This document shows positions 23,216 through 64,000 of a stretch of 64,000 nucleotides of DNA, one piece after another. Below the pieces are notes generated by a model. It did no database searches. It was not told the origin of the DNA and was given only the letters and a program-made list of their open reading frames with translations. This DNA comes from Heliocidaris erythrogramma. Taxonomy: Eukaryota > Echinodermata > Echinoidea > Camarodonta > Echinometridae. Each line of letters begins with the position of its first letter. Position 1 is the first letter of the stretch. The stretch spans positions 14,899,168 to 14,963,167 of the forward strand of contig CM046869.1 in the NCBI GenBank assembly GCA_025617745.1. The letters run 5' to 3'. A program made the position numbers and the translations under genes.

Positions 23216-23582
23216 AAACACATTCTTCTATGCCAATATTGAAAGAAACTCATTTCAGTGATGTGGGTTTGTATCCCACTGCTGCCACCCACCGCCAATA
23301 TCGAAAGAAACACCAGGCAATTGTCGGAGAGTTTGCAGTTCCATGGTGACATTTTTTTTATGGCATTCATAAAGTGAAGCATTCATACAATACGCCTATA
23401 GTGGGTAACATAATTATGCATTTACTGTGACATCTACAGTAGATCATAACATCATGTAATGGAGCAACACCCTCATTCTTTGACAGGATTTACTGCCACA
23501 GCTCCGAAGTAATAAAGAATCACTGCAGTAAACAGTAATACATTACCATATGCAATAATTTCTTTGTATTCACCCTTTTAAG

Positions 23583-23693
23583 GACCCAACTATTGGACCG
23601 ACAGGAGCACCTGGTCCTCCTGGAGAAGGGGGCCCACCTGGCAAGCCTGGTCCTGAAGGCGAGACAGGTCCACCTGGACCTAAGGGAAAGACG
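23583..23693 (+). CDS. Collagen helix exon 2 (copy 1)
   Basis: 111 nt, 37 codons, phase 0. The acceptor is CCCTTTTAAG and the donor GTAATT begins at 23694. It begins DPTI, a non-triplet segment, followed by 33 residues of perfect Gly-X-Y (GPTGAPGPPGEGGPPGKPGP, then EGETGPPGPKGKT). With the preceding exon ending GIAGG, the helix has the imperfection GGD-PTI-GPT. The 111-nt length is best read as a standard 99-nt exon plus 12 nt for DPTI. The equivalent exon in copy 2 (44628-44734) is 4 nt shorter. Confidence 0.9.
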
Positions 23694-26041
23694 GTAATTT
23701 GTTCATTTGTCAAAGTTTGCACCTGAAAAAGATGATGTAATTTTCATCCTGGTTTTAGAAGCATAGACTTCCAGAGCAAAATCTCATTTGTGCACAAAAC
23801 AGTGTAAAATCAGTTTATTGTTGATGACATGAGCGATCATCACATTTTTCTGATGTAAACTTTAGATTTTCTTGTCATAATTTTTATGTAATTTGGGGCC
23901 TTCCCTGAGCTAAATCGGCCTTTGTTCCCAAGCATTTTTTTCACTGGCACATTATGCTCATTCACACCTTCTCAAGGGTGCAAAGCACTTGATAATGTTA
24001 GCCCATCAGCAAGTCATAGCTCATTTTATTACTTATGTGGAAGAAGTTTTTATTTCAAATTGTATGCAACTGTGGGCTCAAAGGTTTGTACGTATGTATC
24101 TGGTTTCATATTAATAGCAGTTGAGCAAGATGCAAGATGCAAGATGGTGGAAACAGAAAGGAGAGCGGTTTTATCCAGTAGAAATTATACAAGTTATGCC
24201 CCCTTATATTGGAACATTTGTGATTAAAAGATCTGTTAGTCATTGTGTTGTTATAATGAACATCAGTTTCAAACTGTGATTACATGTACATCGAGAAATA
24301 TACAAAACATAGAATGATATCATGAAAATTAATTGATATGATCATTTCCTCTGTGAATATATCATTTATATCATGTAGCTCATGACTGAACTTTAGCAAT
24401 GATTATATATGTTCAGATAAATAGTAAAACAATCCATCCAGAAATGGGTACACTAAAAAAATTTAAAAAGAGCCTGTTTTTTAATTTTTAAAGTGTTTCA
24501 TCTTGGTATTGTAGAGACAGATGTAGCTTGGTGCCTTTTAGTTTATAGGATTTATACCTACTTCAAATTCACCTTGATGTTTTGAAATTGTATGAAAGAG
24601 AAATTTCCAGATTTTTTATGACTGACCAGAATCATGGGAAACATATTGGGTTTTTGTGTAAATCAAACCGAAACGAAGCTGAATAAAAAACAAACTTGGA
24701 ATTCTATTTATTTTACATATTATTTTTTATAGCATATGTCTAGATTCTTCTAAGGGGAGATTCGTACAGGCATCTGGAACAGATGATCCTAACTTTGTTT
24801 ATCTATCATGTCTTATATTTTTCAAAATGATTTGGAATAAGATGTAAGTTTTCATGATATTTTGAATATGGATTTTTATAGCTCCAGATGTTTCAGAACA
24901 TAGTAATTTATTGCCAGTTTGTAGAAAATGTCAATCCCAGCTGTTCAAAATATTTTTATGGTCACCATTGTGTTAGATGAAGTGAGTCATAAATTCCATC
25001 ATTTGTTTGAAATTCAGGATTTTTTAAATGTTAATCTAATAACTGTGCACCCATGAGGGTCATTTTACTTTTTTCCCCTACAATATTCATGCTGTGTATC
25101 AAGTAACTGTAAGAAACAAATGCAGAGCTGTTTTGCCTTCGACTCCCATGCATGCACAAACCATGTTCATTTACTCTGTACATTATTTATTGACACTGCA
25201 AATATGTATTTGTAAAATTTGAAATGTACTTTTGAATTTTGCAAAATTTTGTACACAGTTGAAAAGGAAGTTGAAAATGAAGTTGAAATGATGCAAAACA
25301 TGTATTTTCAATAGAATTTCTGCAATTTGGGAATCCTTTTTTATGTAATCCAAGTTTTGTAATTTGTATATATGCAACATTTTCATTAGCATATTGGGGT
25401 CACCATATAAATTAATGGCAAGCTATCATTATGTAGAATCATGCACTATGGAGATGAATTATTCATGTAGACTGAGTTAGAATAGAGAAAATGAAGATAT
25501 TCTAAAAAATTGCAGTCATGAATGCATGTACATGTACATGCTTGTAGCTGTACATTGTTTTTCAGCTTTTACAGTGCTCATTTTTCATCATGAAGGACAT
25601 AGGTCAACAAGCTTTTGACCTTCAAGGAACTCTTGTCTACATTTGATAGAATGTATGTGTAATTGAAATGTTGAGTAATGTAGAGAATTATTTCTTAGTC
25701 TAGGTAAGCTTCAATGCTTAAGACAATCTAAGGTAAGAAAAGAATATGTTTGGAAAGATGCTAGAAGAATGTTAAAACAATATAATAGGATAGGGGCTCC
25801 ACTTTCATCTCTTCATCATTTATTTTGATAAATATTTAATATAAAGAATAATGGGATCAGTGGAGATAGTAATGGCGAGGGATGAGAAAAGGTTCGTAAT
25901 TTACTCCTTACTTATCATACTGCATAATCAGTTTTCGGTTTGTGTTGTGTTACATCTGCAACTTTGGAGTAGTAGAGAGTATTTTCTCATAATTCAAAAA
26001 TTATAACTTTTTAATGTGACATGAGGAGAGCGTTTTCGGGT
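23694..26041. other. Intron, no recognisable element
   Basis: AT-rich. The 101-codon frame at 23922-24227 (+) is identical in copy 2 (44962-45267) but has no recognised domain and no splice context. The duplication explains its conservation here. Confidence 0.5.
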
Positions 26042-27248
26042 CAACACTGGTTCTAGCTCAAATCAAGCTCCACCTTTGCACAGCTACATGTATACATAGA
26101 GAGAAGATTAAAGGAAAACAGAGAATAACATATGAAAAGGTAGACAAAAATGATAGAAGAATAAAGAGAAATAATAACATAAGGAAAGACATAAAGAGAA
26201 GATGTAAGAAGATGCAAGAAGAAAGAAAGATTTGAGTAGAGGTGTCGTGGTCTAGTGGATACGTCACCAGACTGGATCACATGGTTCGTGGTTCGAGTCC
26301 CGCTGCGGAACTAATGTCCTTTCGCAAGACATTAATCTACATTTTTCACTTTCCATCTGGTAGGATGCAAATGTCATTGTGACTGAATTGTATGTGAACC
26401 TGTAAAATGGCTGCCAGACTGGAATGCTACCCTGTGGAGTGGAGAATGTGCACTATAAGTACAGAATCGTAACTGGATCCAATGTCCGGGGTAATGATAT
26501 ACTGTAAAGCGCTTTGATTAGTTATTAACTGCAAAGGCCCATATAAATGCAGGTATTATTATAAGGATGAAATAAGGAAAGATGGAAAGAGAATATAAAG
26601 AAATATTGAATCAAAGAATAACAAAAGGAAAAATATAAAAGAAAGAAAAAAATGATAGAAAAATAAAAACGAAGAACAACAAAGGCAAGATAAAAAGAGA
26701 AGGAAAGAAGAAAAATAAAGAGATACATATGAAAGGATAGATCAAATGATGAAAGAAGGAATGAATAAAAAAGAATAAGGAAAAAAAGAAAGAAGATGAT
26801 AGTAGGATAAAAACAAAGAATAACATTAGGAATGATAGAGGAAGAGAGATAAAGAAATACAAAGTTAATGACACAAGAAAAGATGAAAGAAGAAAAATAT
26901 GGAAAACAATTATAAGGATAGGAAGAGAAAACTAATTATAGAAGGAAGAAACAGAATGACATAAGGAAAGAGAGAAAAAGGATTTACATGTGGAAGATAG
27001 AAAGTTAAGGCGACAAAAAACAAAAATACATTCGAATGATAGAAAAAAGAGATAATAGAAGGCTAAAAACACAGAATAACATAGAAAGATTTTTTTAAAA
27101 GATGACGAAAGAAGAAAAATTAAATGTACATGTATTTATAATGAAGAACGGAAAGTGCATGACGAAGTTGAAATTTACTTTTTGGGTCAAACTGCGCAGT
27201 ATAGCTGCGCAAAGGCGGAGCTTGAATTAAGCAAAAATCAGCATTGGC
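26042..27248. repeat. Purine-rich array bounded by inverted repeats (copy 1)
   Basis: The left edge 26042-26087 (CAACACTGG...CAAGCTCCACCTTTGCACAG) is the imperfect reverse complement of the right edge 27201-27248 (CTGCGCAAAGGCGGAGCTTG...CATTGGC). Between them is a degenerate GATAGAAGAATAAA/ATAACATAAGGAAAGA array on the plus strand, interrupted by a SINE (26238-26562). Minus-strand Phe/Leu-rich frames here are compositional. The architecture suggests a transposon that captured or expanded a minisatellite. Confidence 0.65.
26238..26562 (+). repeat. tRNA-derived SINE (copy 1)
   Basis: A box TGGTCTAGTGG (26249-26259) and B box GGTTCGAGTCC (26290-26300) lie in a tRNA-like head. A body follows containing GCAAGACATTAATCTACAT and TGTGGAGTGGAGAATGTG. 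The tail CCCATATAAATGCAGGTATT ends in ATTATAAG. It is inserted in the purine-rich array. Confidence 0.85.
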
Positions 27249-28266
27249 ATGAACGTTCTCCACAGGAAACCGTGCCTTAAATCAGTGTTTGAACTGTGAC
27301 TCGTGTCCATGATTCTAGCTTAAACAATTACTTGAAAGCACCCTCAGTTTGGCGTTCTCAATCATGATTTTTTTTTCACAACAGACAAAAAATTGCATGA
27401 ACACAACTGTTTTAAACTAAATGTCTTACATATCCTGATTGTGGGCTGAAGAATGTTTGCATGAATGCAACCTAAATCTGCCATAAGTGGGATGGAGGCA
27501 AAAAAACCTAAATGTGAAAGTGGGTGGACCATAATTCCACCCTGGTTTCAACCCATCTAGTGCTCACAAGGATCAAAGATATTACTTTTATAGCCTATTT
27601 AATTATGCTCCTCTATCGATGCGTCCTCGGCTGTTTAATTTGTCTTGCACAAACTTTAATTAAACAACAACAACACATAAATATCCACCAGAAACCAAAT
27701 TCGCTAAAATCTCGTTTCACAGAATACCCAAAATGACACTTTTGAAAAGTGACAATTTTGCCTTTACTGTTAGCTCACTCATGCATGGTTCAATAGATCA
27801 ATCTCATTTTCACAGAAAAGTTAGTCAATAAGTGTAGGAACACTCCTGCCAAGTTATTTTGCTCAAAACATTTTCTTTAAAAAGTTACGCCATTTTGAGT
27901 AAGAGAAGAGTTACTTTTTTTGTTGTGTTTAGTATGCATCACCATAGTGAGACGAACTGATTCGATTTTGGTTCAAGTCTAGGTCAAATGTGACATGTCA
28001 TAGAGGTCATTATATTTGAACTTAATGATTTTTAGCTTTGTTATGACCATATCTCAACTATTTTGTATTCGTGAATGGGAGGAGATAAAGTGATTAGACT
28101 TTTGGTTATCACAGTATTTCAAGAATAGTTTGAGCCATCAACTGAATTTAGGCGTAGGCATATAGGAGACGCAGTCACATTTATCTTGTTTTTCTACTTA
28201 TTTTATTTCTTTATTATCTAGAATTAGACCAGAAATCAGTAAGATGAATTTTCTGTTCTTTTCTAG
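27249..28266. other. Intron with a diverged AGGTCA-type repeat
   Basis: 27935-28110 contains ACCATAGTGAGACGAACTG, GATTCGATTTTGG and TCTCAACTATTTTGTATTCG, all words of the 22113-22664 family. Otherwise there is nothing recognisable. The 70-codon frame at 27524-27736 has no recognised domain. Confidence 0.5.
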
Positions 28267-28320
28267 GGCCTAAGAGGAGTGAGAGGAGAAAGGGGGCAAA
28301 AAGGTGAAGAAGGAATAGAA
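28267..28320 (+). CDS. Collagen helix exon 3 (copy 1), 54 nt
   Basis: Acceptor TTCTTTTCTAG, donor GTGAGC from 28321. Exactly 54 nt, phase 0, the canonical fibrillar-collagen unit. It encodes GLRGVRGERGQKGEEGIE, six perfect triplets unusually rich in charged residues (four Arg/Lys in the first half, Glu-rich second half), plausible as an ionic binding or axial-stagger segment. The same exon is present unchanged at 49320-49373. Confidence 0.93.
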
Positions 28321-30741
28321 GTGAGCAACTCTCTTTTATTGAAAGAATAATTTCTTACTGACTTCTGGATCTATATATTCATAATTTCTCTCTAATTAGC
28401 TTGCAAAAAATACTAATGCTGAGACAAGCTCAAAAACTCTGCTAGGTATGACCCTCACTTAACATTAGATGACATTTTGTTTCTTTTTATCACAAACAAA
28501 CAATTGGTACATCTCATTTTATCATCCATTAAGTAATTTGATTTTCTCTCTCTATTTAATTTTTTTAAAAATCTGACTGTTGACTTGAAGGGCTTTTTGT
28601 GGCTGCAGAGATATGTCTAGATGCTTTTAACAATCTTAAATGCATCCCCTAAACCCATAGAGAGTTTAGCAGTCTATAGATGACAATGTCAGAAAGTTTT
28701 TTAGAAATTATTTTGAAATGGAGATAGCTTGCTCACTTTTAGCCCTTGCATGGACTTTGCCACAGGGAGTGCTCATGTTGAAGCGGGGATAGTTGTAGTG
28801 TTCTACTTTATTCACTCATATCAAAGGTATTACCAGTTTATTAACAAGGTATTTACTTCAAAACATGTGCATTAATATTTAATACACTATCAAATTTACA
28901 TATCATGAAGGATTGGTGATTTTTTTAAAATTTCCTCTTCCAAATTTTACAGACAAGTTATGGCCATTTATTCATGTTACATTACTCAATTGAATTAAAA
29001 ATTCAAAAGCATGAAATGTAATCACTTATTTTTATTTTTGACCATAGATTCTAGCCATTTTTTAAAGAGAATTGTTACATGACAACATCTGAACAAGAAA
29101 TATTAAATCTTTCTTTAAGACATATTCCACACAAATTTCATAATCAACGATATGTGGTTTAATTCATCTTGTCCTTCTCTTGGAAAACAAAATATGTGAA
29201 AATATGGAATTCCTTCTTGCGTTTCAATCATTAATTTGATGTCATAGCACACACAGGATAAGTTCTTTGCTGTGCAGTTAAAATTATATAGTGTGGCAAA
29301 GTCTGTGTTCACTTGCTAAGTGCTAACCTTAGCTATGATTATAGACCTCCAAAACCTGACTCTAACCAGTTTCATTGAGATCACTTTTGATCTCTTTTGA
29401 CAAGATCTTGTGTCATGTTTCATATGAAGACTGCAGACTGCGAAATGTCTTCTGGGTTCACTGTCTGTATATTTCACAATACAATGTACCTCAGCATGGG
29501 TTCTTACACAGTATGGACAGCAAAAAGTGACGTGGATTAAACTTGGTTAGAATCAGGTTAAAGAGGTCAAAATAAACATGTAGCTGTTGTTTTTTAATTC
29601 CTAACCTATAAGAGGTCAGAGAAATAGAAATGAGCTTCTAAGATAACTAATAACATTGTTTCTAACCTTGTGCATTTTTCTCTTTTTGTTTCGAGGTAAA
29701 TAATCATTCTGATCATTCCCTAGCAAACATCAAGTTAATGGTTACATCACCTTTCTGGTAGATTCCAGAAAAAGAAATAGATGAACTGCATTTCTTTCTT
29801 GAGGAGGGGTGTACTTTTCACTTAAAAGTAGATCTGAATGGGTGTAAACTTTATTTTGCCACATTTTGGGAATACAGTTCTCATCATTATTGCATTTTAT
29901 AGGTATTACACAGAATTGTGATTAGTGTCATCAATATGCCTTTCTGAATTTTATGTTTTCACACAAGGCATTGTATCAATAGTTGTCCATTTCCATCCTT
30001 TGTGTAGGCAATAGACACCCATTTCTGACAGGGGTACTGTTTTGTTTTATGTAGCCAAGAGGAAGCCCGTGCAACAGTTTGATCACAAAAATTACATGCA
30101 CCGTTATTATGTTATAGTATAATAGGATTGTAGTCTTTTCTAGTGAGATTATTAATCTGTTAGAAACTTAATGTGTAACAATGCATGCACTACTTTTTTG
30201 TTTATACCTATATGTGAGGATGCATGTGGATAATCAAGCTGGAACTCATTGTCACAATATTCTCAATTTATTTTAAAATATTACTGCTATATATGCACAT
30301 TTTTAATGGGTATTGTTCAGTATATACAGAATATTTCACTGCATATTTACCAAAATGTGGCAGGATTGATTATTTTGATTACATGTTTCTTAAAATGCTA
30401 AGTGTAAAACTATAACAATTCGTAAATGCCCTTGATTTGTTTGAGGTCTAAAATGTACAAATTGTGAAGAAAAAAACAAAATAATGTAGGGAGGAAAAGA
30501 GTGTGATGTTTACTTCCCATTATTCCTCAGTACATTAAACCAAAAATAATGAATATTCATTTTACCCCTTTCTAATTGGAGTGTTTGGGTCAGCAGAGTT
30601 TAGAGACAGGAGTTCTCAATTGCATGCATTGTACTACTTGATGATTTATTTCACGATTTATTTCACTTTTACCTGAAAGAGTGCTTCCCATATATTTTTC
30701 CTTCTATTTTAATATTTCTTGTATTTACTTGGTTTGTACAG
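28321..30741. other. Intron, no recognisable element
   Basis: AT-rich sequence. Short frames (29115-29312, 30224-30415) show no domain. Confidence 0.5.
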
Positions 30742-30795
30742 GGGCGGGTCGGAGCCCCAGGGCCAAGGGGAGATCCTGGCCATCCTGGAACAGAT
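30742..30795 (+). CDS. Collagen helix exon 4 (copy 1), 54 nt, contains RGD
   Basis: Acceptor GGTTTGTACAG, donor GTAAGT from 30796. 54 nt, phase 0. It encodes GRVGAPGPRGDPGHPGTD. The triplet series is perfect and includes Arg-Gly-Asp, the integrin-recognition tripeptide; in native triple helices RGD is often cryptic, so function is not implied. It is identical in copy 2 (51794-51847). Confidence 0.93.
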
Positions 30796-30859
30796 GTAAG
30801 TATATTGAGACTCCCTAGCTTTAAAAATAGAGAGAGATGGATGGAAATAGGCTGAAGAT

Positions 30860-30861
<2 letters not shown>

Positions 30862-30891
<30 letters not shown>
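30862..30891. repeat. (GA)n microsatellite (copy 1)
   Basis: About 14 GA units just inside the intron after exon 4; counterpart at 51914-51943. Confidence 0.9.
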
Positions 30892-30894
<3 letters not shown>

Positions 30895-31282
30895 GTAAGG
30901 GGGCAAATCTGGGTTTTATGATCAGGATAATGCAGACCCTACATTATCGTATTTGGTTTGGTCCATGAACCTACAGTCATATGACACTTGATTACCTGCC
31001 TGATACAGGATTTGTGACTGGATGGTCATAACAATTAATGCTTCTGTTACAGCTTTTCAGAGTTTGTAAACATTATTTCTTTTCCAGAAGATGATGATCT
31101 GAAATAAAAGGTCGAAAATTTAAAACTCATCATGACTCTGATTGAAGTTTTATTTCTAGCACTATTATTTCTATTGCTTTATTATTGTAGTGCACATAAT
31201 AGGAGCATGGGTTGTGAATGGGGATTTTGTTGACATAACTCTCTCCTTTCTATACAGTATTTTACTATCTTTTATCATGTAG

Positions 31283-31381
31283 GGTTTCAATGGCTGGAAG
31301 GGAGGGATTGGACCTCCTGGACCACCAGGATCTGAAGGTGAACGAGGTGGGCCAGGACAAATTGGGCTACAAGGACAAGCG
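31283..31381 (+). CDS. Collagen helix exon 5 (copy 1), 99 nt
   Basis: Acceptor TATCATGTAG, donor GTAAAT from 31382. 99 nt, phase 0, 33 residues: GFNGWKGGIGPPGPPGSEGE then RGGPGQIGLQGQA. Eleven perfect triplets. A tryptophan in an X position (GWK) is rare in triple helices. It is followed by a (CTTCTTCCCC)n stretch in the intron (31400-31434), which in copy 2 is next to a 22-bp tandem insertion. Counterpart at 52335-52433. Confidence 0.93.
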
Positions 31382-31895
31382 GTAAATCTATAGAACCTCT
31401 CATCTTCCCCCTTCTTCCCCCTTCTTCCCCCTTATGTCCCCTTCTTTTTTTCAACCTATTCTTCTTCCTATGCTCTTCTGTTCCCTTTTACTGTATGTAG
31501 TTGCTCTATATTGCTTAATATGTTTTTACAGATTACTTTTAGTTCTTTAACATTTTATGTATATATTTCAATGTTATATTTTGCCCTATTTCTTGACTTT
31601 GTTTATGTAATATTGTTTAAATGAGAATGTTAAAATTGAAACAAGAAACAAAACAGGGATATCTTGCTCCTTTTTCTTATTTCTGTACAAAATTATGTCA
31701 TACAGAAAGCAGAGGTTTTTGTTAGAGAAATGACCACTTAAATGGCAGTTGTACCTTCCGAATTAGAGACAAATATGATTTGGGACAATTGATATAAGTG
31801 AAGCTTTTATTTATATATTATGAAGGCTCTTTCAGAGTTTTGAATACCTATTTCTTTTCTTCCCTCATCTTTTGTTTGTGACCTTTGATCTGCAG
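31382..31895. other. Intron between helix exons 5 and 6
   Basis: Non-coding sequence with a CT-rich start and an AT-rich remainder; no element recognised. Confidence 0.5.
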
Positions 31896-31940
31896 GGTAT
31901 GCCCGGGGACCATGGTGCATGGGGACCACCTGGTCCACCG
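31896..31940 (+). CDS. Collagen helix exon 6 (copy 1), 45 nt
   Basis: Acceptor TGATCTGCAG, donor GTAAGC from 31941. 45 nt, phase 0, encoding GMPGDHGAWGPPGPP. 45 nt is one of the standard fibrillar-collagen exon sizes (54 minus one triplet). It has another rare tryptophan (GAW). Counterpart at 52969-53013. Confidence 0.92.
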
Positions 31941-31982
31941 GTAAGCAACAATGTGCACACTACATTACAAGATTGAATACTT

Positions 31983-33732
31983 TTTACCCACGCCGATGAA
32001 ATCGGCAGGGTTATGTAAAGGGCTCCGTATGTTTTTTTTTTTTTTTTTTTTGTTTGTTTGTTTGTTTGTTTGTTTGTGTACAAGATAACAAGAGAACGGG
32101 TGAACGGATTTGCACCAAATTTTCAGGGAATGTTCAGAAAGTGACAGGAAAGAATCGATTAGATTTTGGTGATGATTGGTTGACCCCTGCACATTCTGTG
32201 TGACCTTGAAGTTTTGACCCTGTAGTAAAGTATAGGAACTTCAGTTCAGATAGTGACAGGAAAGAAACTAGAAAGATTGATGACCCCAAACTTCGCCTGC
32301 AGATGCAGAAATATTTTGGCCAATCAAAACACTCATTACTTCGTCTCACCAAAAGTTTATTTCAGGTTTATGAATTTTAGAAGACTTTTAGACCCATTAT
32401 TTGCCATTTCACTTCAAATCCGTACGAGCCTGCAATGAATATTCAAAGCCAACGTATCCCAGCAACAAGGGATTTTTCGCGCGCTTGAACTACTACCCTA
32501 CTGCGAAAGCGGCTATGTACGTTATACTAGTAATAGGCGGCTCTATAGCTTATAGCTAGCTAGCTATCGCGCGCGATACCTTTTTTTATCTACAAATTCA
32601 TTTAGATTCAGGCTACCCTAGCCCTACGGCTTCTCCTCTATTTCTTATCTTCTGTCCATTTCTGTTTATTTTCCCCGATTCTTTCCACTTTGTTGTGGAA
32701 GTTTTTGTGATTTATTTTATCCTGGTGGACGTGTAGTACGTGATTTTAATTGTTTTCGGTGAAAATCTGGTGAGTTTGTTTGACGTAAGTAAGTCTATCG
32801 CACTCGCGAGCGTTCGCGTGTGTTGATCTGAGTGAGTGGGCTGTGTAGCTTGCTGTACGTACATAACTATACACAGCGCTGTCGCGAAGTGACGGCGATC
32901 TGGTCGGGCTAGGGAGTACATAACCCCAGGGAGTACAGTGCCTGTGCCTGGCTGACTGTAGTAGGATTGAACTTTTTTCTTTGGGTTATAACGGTCCTGT
33001 CATTTGAGATTTGAGTTAGTTTATAACTCATTTATGTCTGTTTGAGTGGATTTCGTAGTTGTAAAATATATACAAAAACTGTATTTTTTAAAATTTGTGT
33101 GGATTTGCAAAATTTGGTGGCTGATCGAGGTTCGCCGAATACATGCACGCCAGTATCCACTTTGACTTTGTTGATGGGTGGTGACTGAGCTGAGTGAGTA
33201 AGCTCTGTGCCTCGCATGCATGTCATTTTGAAGTCGAGATCCAACTTATTTTGTCGTCATATTTATTTTATCCAAGCCCGATGAAAAAAAACAACAACCC
33301 CAATTGCAATGTAATTTAAATATAGAACATGAATACATTTACTAACACTTACATGACTGAACACTGAATACAAATTGCTAACATTTTTTTCCTCACCACG
33401 CCACGCTCTCTGACATGTCTAATCAATTACTTTTAGGGGAGAGATGTTTCAATAATAAAATATCTTTTTCAGAAGAATTTTTTCAAGGGTGGGGACACAC
33501 AAAGCTATGACCTGGATATGGCAAAATTTATTGGGGGGGGGGGGGGTAGATGTGCCTCTTGTTATCCCCTTTGAATGACTACTACTTACAAAAATAATCG
33601 CAACAAAACAAAACCTATATTGGGTTTACTTTTTTTTATACACGACAGGGGAACCAACCAGTAAAAATGCAGTTTCAAGAATAATAGCTCCGCTAAGGCG
33701 TGGGTCTGCCGCCTTTGACGGCCTTTCTAGTT
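31983..33732. repeat. Candidate transposon with ACCCACGCC ends (copy 1)
   Basis: The left end ACCCACGCCGATGAAATCGG carries a small hairpin (GCCGAT..ATCGGC). Near the right end, GGCGTGGGTCTGCCGCC is the inverted ACCCACGCC. Between them are poly-T/(GTTT)n at 32031-32076 and a module (ATAACAAGAGAACGGGTGAA, GATTAGATTTTGGTGATG, TGACCTTGAAGTTTTGACCC) reminiscent of the 22113 family. GC- and CpG-rich sequence lies around 32480-32900. The inverted ends are short, so the boundaries are tentative. Counterpart at about 53058-54807. Confidence 0.35.
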
Positions 33733-34454
33733 AGATGATAACTTTAATTTGTTTTTTGGGTTGAATGAGAGTTTGATCAGAGACTACTGACAATTAAAGG
33801 CAACATTGTTTCCATAAATTAAAGTTAAAAGGGATATTGGAAAGATGTGGATGTGTTAAAGGGGAAAAATAATTTTTTCCCCTTATGAAAATTGATGGCA
33901 GGTAGAGGACTATGGTTCTTTTGTCGCTCAGTTACGACACCCATCCTGTAGCAAACTTCTACTAAAATTATGATTCTGATTCAGTTAAAAGAAAGCTGCA
34001 TGATATCATATTAATCATAAAGGTGAAACTCCGCCAAGGCTTTGAACACTACTGCACGGAAGTATCACATATCGCTATAAATGTTCTCTTTGGAATATTG
34101 ATATGACAGATTTTTTTACCAGTAAAGTTTTACATGGGTGTTTCCCCACATGGAGTCCTTGTTACCCAAATAATTTCAGGTTCATTTTAGTTCATAGCCC
34201 ATTTCATGAATGGCCCACACTACCTTTGAAAAGAGTAGCAGCAGTTGGATCAGAGGTCTTATTATCAAAGATTTTGTGGTATTATTGTTCTTTTATGAAA
34301 TGTGAATGTCTAACACTGTCTAGTTTAAAACTGGTGGCAGCGGTGGGATTGGAAATGTAACAATTCTTAGTGTGGTATTGCATTTCATGTCCAAATCTTG
34401 TGGTCCTGGATGGAATACCATCAATTTTGTTTCCATAATTTCTACCTCATCCAG
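33733..34454. other. Intron, no recognisable element
   Basis: AT-rich sequence leading to the acceptor of helix exon 7. Confidence 0.5.
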
Positions 34455-34553
34455 GGTCCTAGTGGTGAAGGAGCCGTACCAGGAGTTCCTGGTCCACCTG
34501 GAGAAAAGGGGGATCCAGGCCCACATGGAGAGCATGGGCCAGCTGGTCTCTTT
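34455..34553 (+). CDS. Collagen helix exon 7 (copy 1), 99 nt
   Basis: Acceptor TACCTCATCCAG, donor GTAAGT from 34554. 99 nt, phase 0: GPSGEGAVPGVPGPPGEKGD then PGPHGEHGPAGLF. Eleven triplets, all with Gly in the first position. The last codon is Phe in a Y position. Counterpart at 55530-55628. Confidence 0.93.
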
Positions 34554-34984
34554 GTAAGTTTATTTTGGGGAGATTATGTAGCCCTATAAGATTTAGTGAT
34601 TTAGACATGTCTAATTACATTCAGGAGAATATTTTGCAGAAATGAACTGCTTCAAATTTTCATTGGTATAGGTGTAAATGTCAAGGGGAGTGAATATAAA
34701 GGGAAGGATATGAAAGAATATGAAGAAAATAAAGAGTACGATGAAGAAAAAGTGATAAATGAGGTCAAGATTCGAAAATTATATTATCATTAATCTGTTC
34801 ACATGCATTATACTTTTCTTTTATCAAATGATTCAGTAATTAAAAGACTGGAGACAAGAAGAGAAGAACGGCTTTAAATAAACATGAATAATGGAAAGAT
34901 AAAGTGAAATAATAAAGCTAAGATGTTCATTTTTTTTTACAGAATTTATGTTGTAACAGGGGCATTTAATTTTTTTTCTTTCAG

Positions 34985-35038
34985 GGACCACCTGGAGATC
35001 CAGGTCTGCCTGGTGCTGATGGGAGACCTGGTGCACCA
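34985..35038 (+). CDS. Collagen helix exon 8 (copy 1), 54 nt
   Basis: Acceptor TTTTTCTTTCAG, donor GTAAGT from 35039. 54 nt, phase 0: GPPGDPGLPGADGRPGAP. Only 431 bp of intron separates it from exon 7. Counterpart at 56060-56113. Confidence 0.94.
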
Positions 35039-49319: not shown

Positions 49320-49373
49320 GGCCTAAGAGGAGTGAGAGGAGAAAGGGGGCAAAAAGGTGAAGAAGGAATAGAA
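49320..49373 (+). CDS. Collagen helix exon 3 (copy 2), 54 nt
   Basis: Identical in sequence and splice sites to 28267-28320 (GLRGVRGERGQKGEEGIE). Confidence 0.85.
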
Positions 49374-51793: not shown

Positions 51794-51847
51794 GGGCGGG
51801 TCGGAGCCCCAGGGCCAAGGGGAGATCCTGGCCATCCTGGAACAGAT
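51794..51847 (+). CDS. Collagen helix exon 4 (copy 2), 54 nt
   Basis: Identical to 30742-30795, including the RGD tripeptide. Confidence 0.85.
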
Positions 51848-51911
51848 GTAAGTATATTGAGACTCCCTAGCTTTAAAAATAGAGAGAGATGGATGGAAAT
51901 AGGCTGAAGAT

Positions 51912-51946
<35 letters not shown>

Positions 51947-52334
51947 GTAAGGGGGCAAATCTGGGTTTTATGATCAGGATAATGCAGACCCTACATTATC
52001 GTATTTGGTTTGGTCCATGAACCTACAGTCATATGACACTTGATTACCTGCCTGATACAGGATTTGTGACTGGATGGTCATAACAATTAATGCTTCTGTT
52101 ACAGCTTTTCAGAGTTTGTAAACATTATTTCTTTTCCAGAAGATGATGATCTGAAATAAAAGGTCGAAAATTTAAAACTCATCATGACTCTGATTGAAGT
52201 TTTATTTCTAGCACTATTATTTCTATTGCTTTATTATTGTAGTGCACATAATAGGAGCATGGGTTGTGAATGGGGATTTTGTTGACATAACTCTCTCCTT
52301 TCTATACAGTATTTTACTATCTTTTATCATGTAG

Positions 52335-52433
52335 GGTTTCAATGGCTGGAAGGGAGGGATTGGACCTCCTGGACCACCAGGATCTGAAGGTGAACGAGGT
52401 GGGCCAGGACAAATTGGGCTACAAGGACAAGCG
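52335..52433 (+). CDS. Collagen helix exon 5 (copy 2), 99 nt
   Basis: Identical to 31283-31381. The following intron has a 22-bp CTTCTTCCTATGCTCTT-type tandem duplication absent from copy 1. Confidence 0.85.
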
Positions 52434-52968
52434 GTAAATCTATAGAACCTCTCATCTTCCCCCTTCTTCCCCCTTCTTCCCCCTTATGTCCCCTTCTTTT
52501 TTTCAACCTATTCTTCTTCCTATGCTCTTCTTTCTTCTTCCTATGCTCTTCTGTTCCCTTTTACTGTATGTAGTTGCTCTATATTGCTTAATATGTTTTT
52601 ACAGATTACTTTTAGTTCTTTAACATTTTATGTATATATTTCAATGTTATATTTTGCCCTATTTCTTGACTTTGTTTATGTAATATTGTTTAAATGAGAA
52701 TGTTAAAATTGAAACAAGAAACAAAACAGGGATATCTTGCTCCTTTTTCTTATTTCTGTACAAAATTATGTCATACAGAAAGCAGAGGTTTTTGTTAGAG
52801 AAATGACCACTTAAATGGCAGTTGTACCTTCCGAATTAGAGACAAATATGATTTGGGACAATTGATATAAGTGAAGCTTTTATTTATATATTATGAAGGC
52901 TCTTTCAGAGTTTTGAATACCTATTTCTTTTCTTCCCTCATCTTTTGTTTGTGACCTTTGATCTGCAG

Positions 52969-53013
52969 GGTATGCCCGGGGACCATGGTGCATGGGGACC
53001 ACCTGGTCCACCG
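52969..53013 (+). CDS. Collagen helix exon 6 (copy 2), 45 nt
   Basis: Identical to 31896-31940 (GMPGDHGAWGPPGPP). Confidence 0.85.
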
Positions 53014-55529
53014 GTAAGCAACAATGTGCACACTACATTACAAGATTGAATACTTTTTACCCACGCCGATGAAATCGGCAGGGTTATGTAAAGGGCTCCG
53101 TATGTTTTTTTTTTTTTTTTTTTTTTGTTTGTTTGTTTGTTTGTTTGTTTGTGTACAAGATAACAAGAGAACGGGTGAACGGATTTGCACCAAATTTTCA
53201 GGGAATGTTCAGAAAGTGACAGGAAAGAATCGATTAGATTTTGGTGATGATTGGTTGACCCCTGCACATTCTGTGTGACCTTGAAGTTTTGACCCTGTAG
53301 TAAAGTATAGGAACTTCAGTTCAGATAGTGACAGGAAAGAAACTAGAAAGATTGATGACCCCAAACTTCGCCTGCAGATGCAGAAATATTTTGGCCAATC
53401 AAAACACTCATTACTTCGTCTCACCAAAAGTTTATTTCAGGTTTATGAATTTTAGAAGACTTTTAGACCCATTATTTGCCATTTCACTTCAAATCCGTAC
53501 GAGCCTGCAATGAATATTCAAAGCCAACGTATCCCAGCAACAAGGGATTTTTCGCGCGCTTGAACTACTACCCTACTGCGAAAGCGGCTATGTACGTTAT
53601 ACTAGTAATAGGCGGCTCTATAGCTTATAGCTAGCTAGCTATCGCGCGCGATACCTTTTTTTATCTACAAATTCATTTAGATTCAGGCTACCCTAGCCCT
53701 ACGGCTTCTCCTCTATTTCTTATCTTCTGTCCATTTCTGTTTATTTTCCCCGATTCTTTCCACTTTGTTGTGGAAGTTTTTGTGATTTATTTTATCCTGG
53801 TGGACGTGTAGTACGTGATTTTAATTGTTTTCGGTGAAAATCTGGTGAGTTTGTTTGACGTAAGTAAGTCTATCGCACTCGCGAGCGTTCGCGTGTGTTG
53901 ATCTGAGTGAGTGGGCTGTGTAGCTTGCTGTACGTACATAACTATACACAGCGCTGTCGCGAAGTGACGGCGATCTGGTCGGGCTAGGGAGTACATAACC
54001 CCAGGGAGTACAGTGCCTGTGCCTGGCTGACTGTAGTAGGATTGAACTTTTTTCTTTGGGTTATAACGGTCCTGTCATTTGAGATTTGAGTTAGTTTATA
54101 ACTCATTTATGTCTGTTTGAGTGGATTTCGTAGTTGTAAAATATATACAAAAACTGTATTTTTTTAAAATTTGTGTGGATTTGCAAAATTTGGTGGCTGA
54201 TCGAGGTTCGCCGAATACATGCACGCCAGTATCCACTTTGACTTTGTTGATGGGTGGTGACTGAGCTGAGTGAGTAAGCTCTGTGCCTCGCATGCATGTC
54301 ATTTTGAAGTCGAGATCCAACTTATTTTGTCGTCATATTTATTTTATCCAAGCCCGATGAAAAAAAACAACAACCCCAATTGCAATGTAATTTAAATATA
54401 GAACATGAATACATTTACTAACACTTACATGACTGAACACTGAATACAAATTGCTAACATTTTTTTCCTCACCACGCCACGCTCTCTGACATGTCTAATC
54501 AATTACTTTTAGGGGAGAGATGTTTCAATAATAAAATATCTTTTTCAGAAGAATTTTTTCAAGGGTGGGGACACACAAAGCTATGACCTGGATATGGCAA
54601 AATTTATTGGGGGGGGGGGGGTAGATGTGCCTCTTGTTATCCCCTTTGAATGACTACTACTTACAAAAATAATCGCAACAAAACAAAACCTATATTGGGT
54701 TTACTTTTTTTTATACACGACAGGGGAACCAACCAGTAAAAATGCAGTTTCAAGAATAATAGCTCCGCTAAGGCGTGGGTCTGCCGCCTTTGACGGCCTT
54801 TCTAGTTAGATGATAACTTTAATTTGTTTTTTGGGTTGAATGAGAGTTTGATCAGAGACTACTGACAATTAAAGGCAACATTGTTTCCATAAATTAAAGT
54901 TAAAAGGGATATTGGAAAGATGTGGATGTGTTAAAGGGGAAAAATAATTTTTTCCCCTTATGAAAATTGATGGCAGGTAGAGGACTATGGTTCTTTTGTC
55001 GCTCAGTTACGACACCCATCCTGTAGCAAACTTCTACTAAAATTATGATTCTGATTCAGTTAAAAGAAAGCTGCATGATATCATATTAATCATAAAGGTG
55101 AAACTCCGCCAAGGCTTTGAACACTACTGCACGGAAGTATCACATATCGCTATAAATGTTCTCTTTGGAATATTGATATGACAGATTTTTTTACCAGTAA
55201 AGTTTTACATGGGTGTTTCCCCACATGGAGTCCTTGTTACCCAAATAATTTCAGGTTCATTTTAGTTCATAGCCCATTTCATGAATGGCCCACACTACCT
55301 TTGAAAAGAGTAGCAGCAGTTGGATCAGAGGTCTTATTATCAAAGATTTTGTGGTATTATTGTTCTTTTATGAAATGTGAATGTCTAACACTGTCTAGTT
55401 TAAAACTGGTGGCAGCGGTGGGATTGGAAATGTAACAATTCTTAGTGTGGTATTGCATTTCATGTCCAAATCTTGTGGTCCTGGATGGAATACCATCAAT
55501 TTTGTTTCCATAATTTCTACCTCATCCAG

Positions 55530-55628
55530 GGTCCTAGTGGTGAAGGAGCCGTACCAGGAGTTCCTGGTCCACCTGGAGAAAAGGGGGATCCAGGCCCACA
55601 TGGAGAGCATGGGCCAGCTGGTCTCTTT
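55530..55628 (+). CDS. Collagen helix exon 7 (copy 2), 99 nt
   Basis: Identical to 34455-34553. Confidence 0.85.
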
Positions 55629-56059
55629 GTAAGTTTATTTTGGGGAGATTATGTAGCCCTATAAGATTTAGTGATTTAGACATGTCTAATTACATTCAGG
55701 AGAATATTTTGCAGAAATGAACTGCTTCAAATTTTCATTGGTATAGGTGTAAATGTCAAGGGGAGTGAATATAAAGGGAAGGATATGAAAGAATATGAAG
55801 AAAATAAAGAGTACGATGAAGAAAAAGTGATAAATGAGGTCAAGATTCGAAAATTATATTATCATTAATCTGTTCACATGCATTATACTTTTCTTTTATC
55901 AAATGATTCAGTAATTAAAAGACTGGAGACAAGAAGAGAAGAACGGCTTTAAATAAACATGAATAATGGAAAGATAAAGTGAAATAATAAAGCTAAGATG
56001 TTCATTTTTTTTTACAGAATTTATGTTGTAACAGGGGCATTTAATTTTTTTTCTTTCAG

Positions 56060-56113
56060 GGACCACCTGGAGATCCAGGTCTGCCTGGTGCTGATGGGAG
56101 ACCTGGTGCACCA
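56060..56113 (+). CDS. Collagen helix exon 8 (copy 2), 54 nt
   Basis: Identical to 34985-35038. Confidence 0.85.
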
Positions 56114-57022
56114 GTAAGTTTGCTATAACTTGAACATGAGAGGTATTCTTATAATGGCTTAACCCCTTCTGTGCTGCAGGTGGAAAGTTCCACCAAGGAA
56201 TTTGAGTGTTGAACATTGTTTTAGGTCTATAGAATGTCTATATTTATCTTCAGGAAAAAATTTAGGGCAAATTTATCAATGAAGTAAAGCATTTTAAGTT
56301 TAAATTTCACACTTTGAAGTTCATTTTTTAATCATCACTTTATTGTACATAGATAACAAATACATAAGTTTACAAAAACAAAGAAATAGAGAGAAATATA
56401 AAAAGCCCAGGACAAGAACCTATTATGGTTCTAAGCAGGGCAGTACATTAAAAAGGGAAGTTACATCGATTGCAAAAGCTTAATGTGTTGTACATCTTGA
56501 CTAATAAGGTGAAAATGAAGATAAATTTGAGTAAGTTTCTAATACTGTATATCATGTCCTTTTCACAGAATATCGTAAAAATAAAATTTAATTCTAATCA
56601 AATTGCACCTACCTCCAATTAACGCATTTTTAATCTTACTTTTATTATTTTAGCCTTACAGTAATTAACAAATTCATAAGGACATTTCTTATCAATGAAT
56701 GAAATATAGCAAAAATATATAATATTTAACATGCCGTGAAGTTGTTAACCAACCCCCCCCCCCCTCCCGCCCCCACATCAGACTATGTTGTCGGTATCTG
56801 GAGAGGGGTTTGAATTATCCCAAAACGTGGCCCAGATAGGTTAAAATAGAATTTTTGTTATTGTTTATTATGCAGTAGATGGATAGATGAGACTAGCAAA
56901 ATATAAAACTATCAAAAGCAGTTGTGTCTGCTGCATGTTTTTTTATATCAGAATTTTGCACTTTCACCCATTCATTAGGGCCTATAAACATACTTCACTA
57001 TTTATCTGTCTATTTCCTTTAG

Positions 57023-57121
57023 GGTCGCAATGGAACTGATGGTCAGCCTGGAGACCGAGGTCCTGAGGGTCCCCCAGGTGAACAGGGACCTCCAGGAGAG
57101 GGAGGCCTTCCAGGAAACCCG
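57023..57121 (+). CDS. Collagen helix exon 9 (copy 2), 99 nt
   Basis: Identical to 35947-36045, including the GTCAGT donor. Confidence 0.85.
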
Positions 57122-58060
57122 GTCAGTATTTTCCCATTCCCCTGCTTTTCATGCACTCCATACCATAGTCTGTATGTATAGTCTTAATAATATGCTTCAA
57201 GATTCAAGATTTATTGTCCATATATAATACAGATATTTGCTTTCCATTGGTGTTACATGAAATATGTGACACATAGACAAAACATGGTATCGTGTGCTGA
57301 GACCCAGAAGGGCAGTTAGACTATAAAGTTATGGTAGCACAAGTAATGAAATACAGTCAAACCTGTGCAATAAGGCCACCTCTGTGAAGTAAAGAAGTGG
57401 CTTCTGTAGACAGATAGCCCTGTTACATGGGTTCTACAGCAGATAATTATTTCTAGAGGGAAACAGTATGGGTGGATGATCTGATATTTGCTCAAGTGAC
57501 ATTTGTTTTGGACTTGATTTCATCAAAGGTATCAGGTTAGAGATTTAATTGCAATTGTGTTTTAGGTTAGGTTTAGAGTTGGGTTAAGGGATAGGAATAA
57601 TGTTTGTCCAGTGTTGGAGTTGAGAATTTGATAAGTGTTGGAATTTGACTGTGAGGCATTGTAGTCATAGCATGTGTTGTTCAATCTGTAGGTTACCAAC
57701 TCTCGTCAAGTGACCATGATGGAGAGATGGCCATTATGGCAGGTTTGATTGTATTGTTGTAACATGACTAGGAAATCATTGGTGGGATGTTAAACTGTTT
57801 AACTCAGTTTCTTGTGAAAACCTTGTTTTCCTAATTTTTTAGGACCAATTTGATGTTCCGATAACCCATCCAATTGCATATCTTCAACAATAATGTCACA
57901 AGCTACATGTATAGCGAAGGATGTCAATACTCTATATTAAAAATTAAAATGTTTTAGCTTTCATCAAAAGTGAAAATTTTTGAGTTACAAGGTTATATCA
58001 TCCCACCAACAAAATGTTGATTCACTCAAACTTTTATAATGAGGGCTGTCTACTCCTCAG

Positions 58061-58159
58061 GGTAGGATGGGCCAGCCAGGAGATACAGGATCCAAAGGGG
58101 AGAAGGGAGAGGATGGAAACATGGGTCCTCCTGGTGCCAGAGGCTTGTTTGGAATCATG
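58061..58159 (+). CDS. Collagen helix exon 10 (copy 2), 99 nt
   Basis: Identical to 36983-37081. Two small indels lie in the intron just upstream (near 57861 and 57993). Confidence 0.85.
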
Positions 58160-58622
58160 GTAAGTTGTTGCATTTGCCACCAAGCTTATCCACAGAATAT
58201 ATGGTCCAGATTAAAAGAAATATAGCTTTGTGGCATTTCAGGGGGTGATCTGGGAGAACCATAAGTTGGAGAAGTTGAAAGTACGGGGTATGCATTGATG
58301 TGTTTGATCCTCTTGTCCATACCCTTGTTCAGAGAGAATTTGCCCTTGGCAATTAATTTTAGAAGTCCAAAGCAATTTGGCAAATTGAAAGTATACTAGC
58401 GCAAAGGTTGTTGTGCTCTGACTGGCAAAAACTCTGACTGCCAAAAACTCTGACTGCCACAATTTGTCCAGGGACAGAATGCTGAAAACTATCGAGACAC
58501 CATACCAACATGAAAGTTATCAGGTAACCCCTTCAGATTATCATCTATTGTCAAATCTGAAACTTTCGCTATTTCTTGAGTTATTTAAATTTATAAAAGT
58601 TCATGAATAGGAATACAGAATC

Positions 58623-58833
58623 ATAATCAGTGGTAGAGCAGTGGTCTCATAACTGTGGTCTCGTAACTGGAGGACCCGGGTTCGAACCAAGTGGATGCGC
58701 TAGTTCCCTTTGGTATGGCATTAATCCTCATTACCAAGTCCTTGGAGAGAACTTAAAGCCGTCGGTCCCCAGGTTGCTTACTTAAAGCATACACATGCTC
58801 TCTTAGCAGTCGGGTAAAATAAACCATTGAACC
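58623..58833 (+). repeat. tRNA-derived SINE, second family (copy 2)
   Basis: Counterpart of 37545-37755. Confidence 0.8.
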
Positions 58834-59368
58834 AAATCAAACGAAACATGGAATATCCTGTGTGCAGGAGTTTTCGTGTGCCTATACCACTAGAACAGAT
58901 AGTTATAACCATTCTGCTTTCTTAACGCAAAACATAAAACTTATATAAATCTTATGAACCATTCCTATCTTTTGGATCAATTGTACGTTAGTATTGAACC
59001 AAGTCAGGATTTGCAATATTAATTTCTTAATTAAGGATAAGTTTGATATAATGTGATATGGCTTTCGTCAACCTGTTTGCCAACTTCCATCATTACAGAA
59101 AACCAAGGATCAATCAATCAGATTTTTACAAATGGTCCAATTCCTTTAGATATATCCCCAATATTTGTTACAAATAAATGGACCAACCGCATGTATTGCT
59201 GACTTTTTCTATAATACTATAATAAAGATAATTTATTCTCTTTTTGTACGTTATTTGCAGATTATATTGCGTAGTGTTGAAATTATATCATTTTTTAAAA
59301 ATCATTGTGTCCCATATTTAATTAGAATATTGCTGAGATCTTGCTGTTTCATATTCATTCTCTCCCAG

Positions 59369-59476
59369 GGTGAAAAAGGCATGAAAGGTCAAGCTGGTAG
59401 TAGAGGTGAGATGGGAGACGATGGCTTCTCCGGTTTTCCAGGGCCTGTTGGTCCTGCTGGACCAAAAGGTTATCCA
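59369..59476 (+). CDS. Collagen helix exon 11 (copy 2), 108 nt
   Basis: Identical to 38291-38398. It is the last collagen exon visible in the window. Confidence 0.85.
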
Positions 59477-59858
59477 GTAAGTTATTGTGCTAGTTCAGAA
59501 GTAACTGTTATACAGATGCAACATATAGGCTTTTTACACTTGCAAAATTTTGCTTAGTCCCTTACTATCGGTAGGGCTAAACGAGCATTTAGCCCCACCA
59601 ATAGTACAGGACTAAGCTTAGCCCATTTCCTGTTCACATTGCATTTTAAGCAAGTAGGCTAACTCCACGATAGTGCAGGATTATTTTAGTCCCGGAAAAA
59701 TGGCGGGTTAGCCCACTAATGGTGGGGCTAAATATAAAAGGGTGGGGCTAAGTGCTCAAGCGAGAACAGAAATAACAATAGTCTGGGGTTAAGGATAGTC
59801 CGGTGTTAAGGATAGTTATAGGCCTCTGTCGGTCAGAAAATACGATGGATAGAGCACC

Positions 59859-61560
59859 CTAGGTAGATATAGATGATGTGCTGCTGTGGCTGGTGAGTCT
59901 GATGCGAAAATGGCAGTCTCTCGCACACTGGCCGCATATGTAGGTACATGTATTATTCGTTTTTGCATAGGTACGGGCTTTTTGTCTGGCTTTTTTCTGG
60001 TCAGCCAGGTCTAGAAGCTTTTCTTCACACTTCTTAAGTTGACGGCGAAAAAGGCCTCTCCAGTTACTACGGTTGTCTGCTGCATTTTCCCAACATCTAA
60101 TATCTAGATCCAGCGCTCTCATGTGATGCTTACATGTATCTTTGTAGCGTAATTTTGGCCGGCCAACAGCTCTCTTTCCAGAGGCAAGTTCACTGTAAAG
60201 GATGTCCTTGGGTATGCAGCCATCTTGCATCCGATGAACATGGCCGAGCCAGCGCAACCAGCGTTGTCTCAGAATTGTAAACATCGTTGGGAGACCAGTG
60301 CGTTGAAGGACCTCTCTATGTGTTACTTTGCCCCTCCAGGAGATCCCAAGGATGCGGCGAAAGCAGCGCATGTGGAAGCTATTCAGCTTCTTCTCCTGTT
60401 TGGCATACGTTGTCCAGGTTTCGCTTGTATACAAAAGCATGCTGACAATGCACACATTGCACACAGCTGCCTTGGTCTTGGAAGTTTAGTATTCTCTCCC
60501 AAATACGTGTTGTGAGTCTGGTGAATGTGGACGCAGCTTTCCCGATGTGTTTGTTAATTTCTGCATCGAGAGAGAGCTTGTCGTTGATGGTAGATCCTAG
60601 ATATGGAAACTGTTGAAAAACCTCCAGTTTGTGGTTTTCAGTGGTTACTGTTGGTGGAGTCCCTGTACCCTGACTGAACACATTGGTCCTCTTCAAACTG
60701 ATGACCAATCCAAAGTCCCTGCAGGCTTGGGAGAAGCGGTTCAACAAATGCTAAGTTGTTGCTCAGTGTGTGTGTGACGATTGCTGCATCGTCAGCAAAC
60801 AGCATGTCCTTTAGTTTTTGGAGACTTGTCAAGATAACTCGCGAAAAGAGTTTTCCAAAAACGCCTAGAAGGGAGATGCCCCTGTAGTTGTTGCAGTCGC
60901 TTCTGTCGCCCTTATTCTTGTAGGGGGTGATAATCTTGGCGTCCTGCATGTCTTGTGGTACTGATCCTTTTATCCAACATTGACAGAGAACACCATGTAG
61001 GGGTTGCAGAAGTGTGCTTTTGCAGGACTTGATCAGGTCTGGTGGGATACCATCGTTTCCAGGAGCTTTTCCCGACACCAGGCTGGCAATGGCACTGAGA
61101 TCCTGCTGGGTTGGTTCTTCGTCAAGTTCTGCATGGTGGGAAGACAGTCGATGGCATCAAGGGTTGAGAGGGCAATGATGTGTGCTCTAGAGTACAGCTC
61201 AGAGTAATGTTCTTCCCATCTCTCCATCTGTTTGATTTTGTCCGTGATAAGTTCCCCACTAGATGACTTGAGGGGGGCCATCTTGGTCTGGACAGGTCCT
61301 ATGGCTTTCTTGATGCCATCATACATTTTCCTGATGTTTCCTGTTACTGCTGCTGTCTGGATGTCATCGCTGAGCTCAACCCAGTACGCATTGGCACATT
61401 TTCTGGCAGTCTGCTCTACCTTGTTCCTGGCAGTTCTGAGTACCTGAAGAGTCTTCTCATTCGGTAGACGCTTGTACTCAACAAAGGCAGCTCGCTTTGC
61501 CTCATTGACAGGAGTCATCTTGTCTTTTATTTTCAGTTTTGCTTGATAGCCCCCTTCCAC
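59859..61560 (-). pseudogene. Decayed non-LTR retrotransposon ORF (copy 2)
   Basis: Counterpart of 38781-40482, with the same frame breaks and the same palm-region deletion. One substitution turns a Lys codon into Ile in the linker (near 61234). Confidence 0.85.
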
Positions 61561-63269
61561 TGACCATCAAAGGCTCATCCCAAAACTGCGAATTTCAGCG
61601 TTCTGATGAATTCTGAGGATATTTGAGCCGACAAGCGTGTTTTGGGGGCCCTTTTTTCTGGCAAATCCGATAAAGATCTGACATTGATCGGGGTAATCGG
61701 ATGAAAGACTGGTAGCTGCCCAATATCTGTCGGCCGTTTTCATCGGCGGCATTCGATTCATCTGTTGGAGGGTAAATCGAGGATGATCTGACACTAACCC
61801 AACACTTCCGACAATCGCTCGACACTAATCCGACTAATCAGTTAGTAATCGGACACTGACCTGATACTCTGCGGATTTTTCGCCAAAATCAGAAATTGTG
61901 TGCAAAAGGAGGATCTTGGTGTAGCGCTGTAGCACTGTTATTGTCTGATGAAAATCTGTCAAGCACCAGTGTTGGCTGACCCTGGAATCACCCTCCTTTT
62001 ATAGACCGTTGGCCGTCAGATGTCACCACTGGTTATGCGATAAGTGTCGGGCGACAGTTGGGTCAATGAGCTATTACCCTCCGATGAGTGTTGAATTTGC
62101 TAGTCTTTGCTTGACATCATTTTGAAGTAGTAATGGGGAAATCTGGTATGATCTAGTGATGAAATGATTTTATATTCCTTAACGAGGTGCTATGTTACAT
62201 CAAAATTAATCTCTAAATTCAAATTTGATGAATGATGACCATTAAAACTTCCTCTTTTAACATCATTTTCGCTAAAGATACAATAAGGTTTGTAGATATA
62301 GACTACTGTGTTATATGCATGCATAGCGTGTTAATAATACGTAGGTCCGTGTGTGTGTGTGTGTAGGCCTAGCTAGCGCTCCACGTATGTATAGCTGTGA
62401 TACGTGAAACAATACACACACGAAATGCAAGCGCGTATATGTGTTGCATATTCAACTTCCAAAGTTTTCTTCGAACTACAGTACATATTCTCTCCAACAA
62501 TAAGTTCTAATGTTGCTGCCAGTTCAGTTCTGATGGCTTTGGCCGAGTTAAGCTTTATGTATGCCTTGCATGTTATTAGTTGAGTGTCACAAATCATGCA
62601 CCAGCGAGAGCGTTGAACTGGCACCGAAAGCGATGGCGATGCCATGGCCATTTCGCATTGATTGGGCCACGACCAGGACTACATTTTCACACACAACTTT
62701 TATCAGTAAGAAGTTGCAAATGTAGGCCTAAATGCCAATTATTTCCGTTTTCAGCACCTCGTTTCCCGGCTTGTTTCTTGCAAATCTCAGAGAGTTTTAA
62801 TATCCAATTCGAATGCATGCACAATACAGTACAGTACATCATAATGTGTACAGCTAGCTCGAGCTGAGCTGATATGCGATATGCGCGATCAGATCAGGGA
62901 TCCCACCACGTGCAAAACGTAAAGCGAACTGTTTGATTGACGGTGATTTCATGAATATTTATGATCACTTGTGTGTGAACTTTTGACCCCTGACGTCAGC
63001 GTGGAGCAATTGCACTGGACTTTTTTTTTTTCGGGGCCAACAGGTTCTCGGGATCGCGCCATCACTCGGCTTATCGCGTATAGTCGGCAAATAAAAAACT
63101 CAATAAAAAGAGTCCAGAACTAGACTAATTAAGCACCAGAGAGCCACCATGCATCAGCCCAGAATACTCTTCTGTTATTACGTTCTCCGGCAGTTTAAGG
63201 GGATTGTGACCCAGCCAGAACATGATTCACAGGAACTCTATCATTAGGACACCCAAGCATGACCCAGAT

Positions 63270-63460
63270 TAGAGTACCTTTATATAGAAGAGTAGCGACA
63301 TGGACGTCTGACTTTTCTGGACACAAAATGGCGTTCGAATTCTTTCTAATGAGAACACCCAGGTGCTCATCGGAATTGAAAGGAAATGTTACGTAATAGT
63401 GGACACAAAATGGCGTTCAAATCACAGGTTGTCGTTACTCTTCTATATAAAGGTAATCTA
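63270..63460. repeat. hAT-like MITE (copy 2)
   Basis: Counterpart of 42191-42382, one base shorter near its right arm (GTTGTCGTTACTC against GTTGTGCGTTACTC), with the same ACCCAGAT flanks (63262-63269, 63461-63468). Confidence 0.9.
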
Positions 63461-64000
63461 ACCCAGATGACCCCCTAACATTCATGGGATTGGCACAGGT
63501 AAGGCGCTGGATGCTGTCCCAGTATTCAAGAACTAGGTTCTTACCTGTCGCCCAGTAAGGATAGTATGGGGTTAAAAAAATCAAGTGTAAAAAGCCTATT
63601 AGAGGTTTATACATGTTTCATTGGTTTTCTTGATGGATAGCTTTTTTTTAAAGAGCTAGACCCATACACAATATCAGTGATTATGATCTTGTAAAATGTA
63701 CATCATGTGCAGTATCTGTGAATATGATTGGTTTTAAAGTTTTATGATGACTATCCCTTGATGTTTCATATTTTTTTTGGTACATAAATATATGGGTTGT
63801 GTTATAATGAACTAAACGCTTTCAAATGAAATCTTTCCATATCTATGTATGGGTATGAAAAACAAGATATCACATTTTGGGGGAATGGAAATGCAAGACA
63901 GAAATGAAGTGAATAAGATCATATGAAATTACTCTTAGGGTATGTACATTTTTGAGGGATCCTTTGAAGGTGGTAGTTATTTCTCTGATACAAAGTGGGA

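Follow-up and report, generated by a model that had tools for sequence, protein, structure and literature searches.

Where adjacent contigs with aligning ends are set in succession, the outcome is a recognized kind of false segmental duplication, for which Kelley and Salzberg (2010; PMC2864568) use the term duplicated overlapping contigs. False duplications are also divided into heterotype, in which two haplotypes of a heterozygous individual are both kept, and homotype, in which one haplotype is split by read errors (PMC9516828). The joining of sequences with 500 Ns is documented for a chicken assembly project, as its description states (PMC10942973). In the account of PMC2852846, fibrillar collagen genes have exons of 54 bp and relatives that begin with a whole glycine codon, and the chains of types XXIV and XXVII (clade C) are described there as carrying glycine substitutions and having no minor helix. 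The D-period is given as 234 residues in PMC4450265.

The window analyzed here is a stretch of 64,000 nucleotides from Heliocidaris erythrogramma (GCA_025617745.1, contig CM046869.1, positions 14,899,168 to 14,963,167), which a gap divides into two assembled contigs, contig 1 upstream and contig 2 downstream. Self-BLAST of the window returned a single long direct match, in which positions 23216-42922 (copy 1) were repeated in the same orientation at 44261-64000 (copy 2) with 99.691% identity over 19,750 columns (E = 0) and with an offset that grew by 33 bp along the match. Among the self-matches counted (150 bp or longer, with E no higher than 1e-20), the remaining ones were four pairs of 285-307 bp with 76-85% identity and one piece of 172 bp with 97.7% identity. 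The earlier note on this DNA had described a direct duplication of about 20 kb across a gap of exactly 500 N with an offset drift of 33 bp, and all of this was borne out. The match was cut by the window edge: the comparison stopped at position 64000, leaving the last 838 bp of contig 1 (42923-43760), including an eleventh collagen exon, uncompared and with no visible partner inside the window. The features are listed in Table 1.

Table 1. Positions of the repeat, the gap, the collagen exons, and associated elements in the 64,000-nt window.
Feature	Positions	Strand	Remarks
Copy 1	23216..42922	+	part of contig 1 repeated past the gap; self-BLAST and base-by-base difference list
Copy 2	44261..64000	+	opening stretch of contig 2, which matches copy 1 from base 1 of the contig onward; self-BLAST and difference list
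Placeholder gap	43761..44260		exactly 500 N; sole run of N in the window
Contig 1 tail, second copy of 40447-40618	43593..43760	+	last 168 bp; 0 substitutions
First helix exon (IMK, then Gly-Xaa-Yaa triplets)	21488..21583	+	96 bp; AG/GT, translation; outside the repeat
Collagen exon, 111 bp	23583..23693	+	AG/GT, open frame in copy 1; begins Asp-Pro-Thr-Ile
Copy 2 of the 111-bp exon	44628..44734	+	107 bp, net loss of 4 bases at 44681; frame lost
Collagen exon, 54 bp	28267..28320	+	identical copy at 49320
Collagen exon, 54 bp	30742..30795	+	identical copy at 51794
Collagen exon, 99 bp	31283..31381	+	identical copy at 52335
Collagen exon, 45 bp	31896..31940	+	identical copy at 52969
Collagen exon, 99 bp	34455..34553	+	glycine replaced once (Ala-Val-Pro); identical copy at 55530
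Collagen exon, 54 bp	34985..35038	+	identical copy at 56060
Collagen exon, 99 bp	35947..36045	+	identical copy at 57023
Collagen exon, 99 bp	36983..37081	+	identical copy at 58061
Collagen exon, 108 bp	38291..38398	+	identical copy at 59369
Collagen exon, 54 bp	42995..43048	+	in contig 1 beyond the compared part; counterpart, if any, just past the window end
Decayed LINE-like element	38784..40488	-	lies within the repeat; its open pieces are in different frames and its ends approximate

The repeat is very probably an assembly artefact, in which one locus is represented by two contigs that overlap by about 20 kb and that were placed one after the other across a placeholder. Near-identical sequence lay at the facing ends of the two contigs: copy 2 started at the first base 3' of the gap, and copy 1 was matched to 838 bp before the gap, where the window ended. 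The 500 N stood between the copies. This arrangement resembles the duplicated overlapping contigs of Kelley and Salzberg (PMC2864568), in which the aligning ends of neighboring contigs mimic a recent duplication; those cases were tested with mate pairs, whereas ours was judged from its sequence alone. It likewise resembles heterotype and homotype false duplications (PMC9516828) in the gap between the copies, in the allele-like and error-like differences, and in the duplication of part of a gene beside itself, although those types are defined by depth and k-mers and the likeness here was drawn from the letters of the window. The artefact was further supported by the small number of substitutions (seven), by short indels located mostly in same-base runs, by the allele-like 21-bp and 12-bp variants, by the repeated tail of contig 1, by the helix, which copy 1 would continue and copy 2 would take back to near its start, and by the fact that the sole difference in a visible exon was a frameshift. 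The clustering of five of the seven substitutions and the lack of a visible partner for the last 838 bp of contig 1 counted against it. The start of the repeat at the gap edge would also be expected from a real duplication broken by the gap.

As we picture its origin, two contig ends of one locus would overlap by about 20 kb and be left unmerged by the assembler, and later scaffolding would put one contig behind the other with 500 N as a placeholder, which would write the overlap twice. Both copies would then come from one genomic place, and the overlap would continue as far as the end of contig 1 or close to it. Merging would most likely have failed through uncorrected read errors near the contig ends, together with a few allelic differences and the repeated tail of 168 bp. 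The underlying gene would probably be an unremarkable collagen of the fibrillar type, in which these exons occur once. The preference of the earlier note for an artefact over a real duplication was supported by the gap-edge start, the homopolymer indels, and the frameshift near a contig end, and its proposal of retained haplotypes or mis-scaffolding can be sharpened to unmerged overlapping contig ends. As an artefact, the repeat is relevant only to annotation, where gene prediction may report a collagen with repeated exons or a split gene.

Compared base by base, copy 1 and copy 2 differed at 24 places in total over 19.7 kb. Seven of these were single-base substitutions and 14 were indels of 1 or 2 bases; the others were one 12-bp and one 21-bp length variant and one site at which six bases were replaced by two, so that four were lost. 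Of the 14 short indels, nine were located inside same-base runs of at least four in copy 1, which made up 11.3% of its bases (binomial P = 4e-6). Homopolymer-length indels are a usual mark of long-read consensus error. The 21-bp difference consisted of one versus two tandem units, and the 12-bp difference lay in a purine-rich stretch; both look allele-like. Five of the seven substitutions were packed into 1.06 kb, an arrangement with P = 0.0008 if placement were uniform, and the 12-bp variant lay close to them. Such clustering is unexplained by random read error and suits alleles, and it would fit paralogues too. Overall, the differences look like a mixture of a sequencing-error-like part and an allele-like part, which the window cannot separate.

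Both types of false duplication are compatible with the artefact, and we give even chances to the heterotype, with both haplotypes of one individual kept, against the homotype. The clustered substitutions and the 21-bp tandem-unit and 12-bp differences argue for two haplotypes. On the other side, seven substitutions are few for 19.7 kb, and the short indels are mainly differences in homopolymer length.

A local repeat may also have contributed. Read in the same direction, the contig 1 tail (43593-43760) matched 40447-40618 save for four lost single bases, each of them in a run; it is either a repeat present a second time or the chimeric end of a contig. It is possible, though somewhat doubtful, that a real repeat at this end broke the assembly graph and that another contig covers the place, which would again be compatible with the artefact. 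The position of the matched segment 40447-40618, next to and partly within the LINE-like stretch, favors a real repeat. In that stretch, the piece 39563-40078 matched reverse transcriptase chains of LINE-1 ORF2, the best LINE-1 hit having E = 9.8e-5, and the open pieces gave no Pfam match above the cut-off. Against such a repeat, only 42 of the 172 bp overlapped the LINE-like open pieces and two open frames that cover the remainder of the 168-bp stretch had no Pfam match above the cut-off. Single-base losses without substitutions point to noisy reads of the same place, in the form of a chimeric tail, no less than to a second element.

The collagen exons of contig 1 from 23583 to 43048 numbered 11, with AG/GT borders in all 11 cases and a total of 876 bp (292 residues). 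Ten of them were of 45, 54, 99, or 108 bp and started with glycine, and exon size and glycine start in these 10 of 11 exons agree with the fibrillar type proposed for this gene. Copy 2 had been said to reproduce copy 1 exon by exon; this held for nine of the ten exons visible in copy 2, which were identical, but the first duplicated exon was frameshifted in copy 2 by the net four-base loss at position 44681 (base 421 of contig 2), the only difference inside a visible exon. Similarly, the figure of 274 added residues was right as arithmetic, ten exons in copy 1 amounting to 822 bp, but it is not a readable residue count because one of these exons lost its frame in copy 2.

The gene is of the fibrillar type. 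As in the fibrillar collagen genes of clades A, B, and C described in PMC2852846, exons of 45, 54, 99, and 108 bp started with glycine and ended on a whole triplet; points of difference were two glycine substitutions in the visible helix and that no N-propeptide module was found in the frames scanned, and a C-propeptide (COLFI) would be beyond the window. The visible helix in contig 1 comprised about 321 residues and carried glycine substitutions in the Pro-Thr-Ile triplet and, as alanine, in the 34455 exon, compared with the uninterrupted major helix of about 338 triplets that serves as the fibrillar criterion. The chain is possibly clade C-like (COL24/COL27-like), since types XXIV and XXVII are likewise described as having glycine replaced in places and as lacking a minor helix. 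Neither TSPN, a module that also marks clade C, nor VWC was found with Pfam-A (E 0.001) in 107 stop-to-stop open reading frames, a scan that would miss short exons. These were 67 plus-strand frames of 52 aa or longer within 1-23216, together with 40 of 41 others; the remaining frame, at 19183-20220 on the minus strand, was scanned separately, less one residue. Two of the 107 frames matched collagen and one matched reverse transcriptase.

The helix started at 21497, upstream of the repeat. In a scan for at least four triplets, four matches of four triplets were found upstream of this point, three of which overlapped in one G-rich stretch, and these were taken as chance. If spliced directly, the exons 21488-21583 and 23583-23693 would join in register, the two final glycines of the first and the four leading residues of the second reading Gly-Gly-Asp and then Pro-Thr-Ile with its glycine replaced; therefore, copy 1 would continue the helix, while copy 2 would return to a place near the helix start. 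The visible exons represent about the first third of the helix, because about 321 of about 1,000 residues are visible from the helix start on. Two other routes to a placement were tried and rejected. The joined exons matched 33 distinct solved chains, mostly of collagens I, II, V, VI, IX, and XI, and copy 1 could not be placed by sequence because it is repetitive, the type I alpha-2 chain alone being matched at no fewer than seven overlapping stretches spread along its length in the alignments listed for the best two of the 33 chains. When exon sizes were compared instead with those that we take human COL1A1 to have, nine of 11 boundaries coincided near the N-terminal third of its map. This fit was not significant, as shuffled exon orders equaled or exceeded it in 17% of 20,000 cases.

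A real and very recent tandem duplication of about 20 kb within the collagen gene, with its junction in the gap and a longer helix as the result, is very improbable: despite the high identity through introns, transposon pieces, and exons, the nine of ten exons left unchanged, and the start and end of fibrillar-type exons on whole triplets, which would in principle permit in-frame reading, the short indels are mostly of the homopolymer type, a position at a placeholder gap is what false duplications typically show and would require the junction to hide there, and the longer chain is unreadable through the first exon of copy 2 as written because of the frameshift. The helix would also have to return near its start after about a third of its length, and the residues Asp-Pro-Thr-Ile that open the first exon of copy 2 would fill out triplets begun in the 21488-21583 exon, so that behind copy 1 they would break the helix. 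At 288-292 residues, the visible unit, which may differ from the full unit, is no multiple of the D-period reported in PMC4450265. We would put very little weight on the corresponding scenario of a duplication too recent to have diverged, perhaps a polymorphic allele, that adds roughly 290 residues to the N-terminal third and in which the copy 2 frameshift is a base-calling error. If true, a real duplication would test the proposal, as put forward in PMC4450265, that fibrillar helices are lengthened only in permitted steps.

Several features outside the repeat were also observed. At 19180-20220, the minus strand contained a 346-codon open frame resembling tyrosine recombinases; across 72-80% of its length it was 24.5-27% identical to proteins from four phage records, three of which represent the recombinase of one phage. 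It had no Pfam match above the cut-off and is perhaps part of a mobile element. The plus-strand stretch at 5977-6621 held an open frame of 215 residues that has a high content of Pro, Thr, and Glu and contains about nine repeats of 15 bp; the frame had no Pfam match above the cut-off and could be a variable-region exon of the N-propeptide of the collagen. A reverse transcriptase fragment (Pfam RVT_1, E = 6.8e-8) was located at 4058-4468 on the plus strand. Finally, a tandem array with a 102-bp unit (2.7 copies, 78% matches) and many short palindromic motifs occupied 13476-13759.
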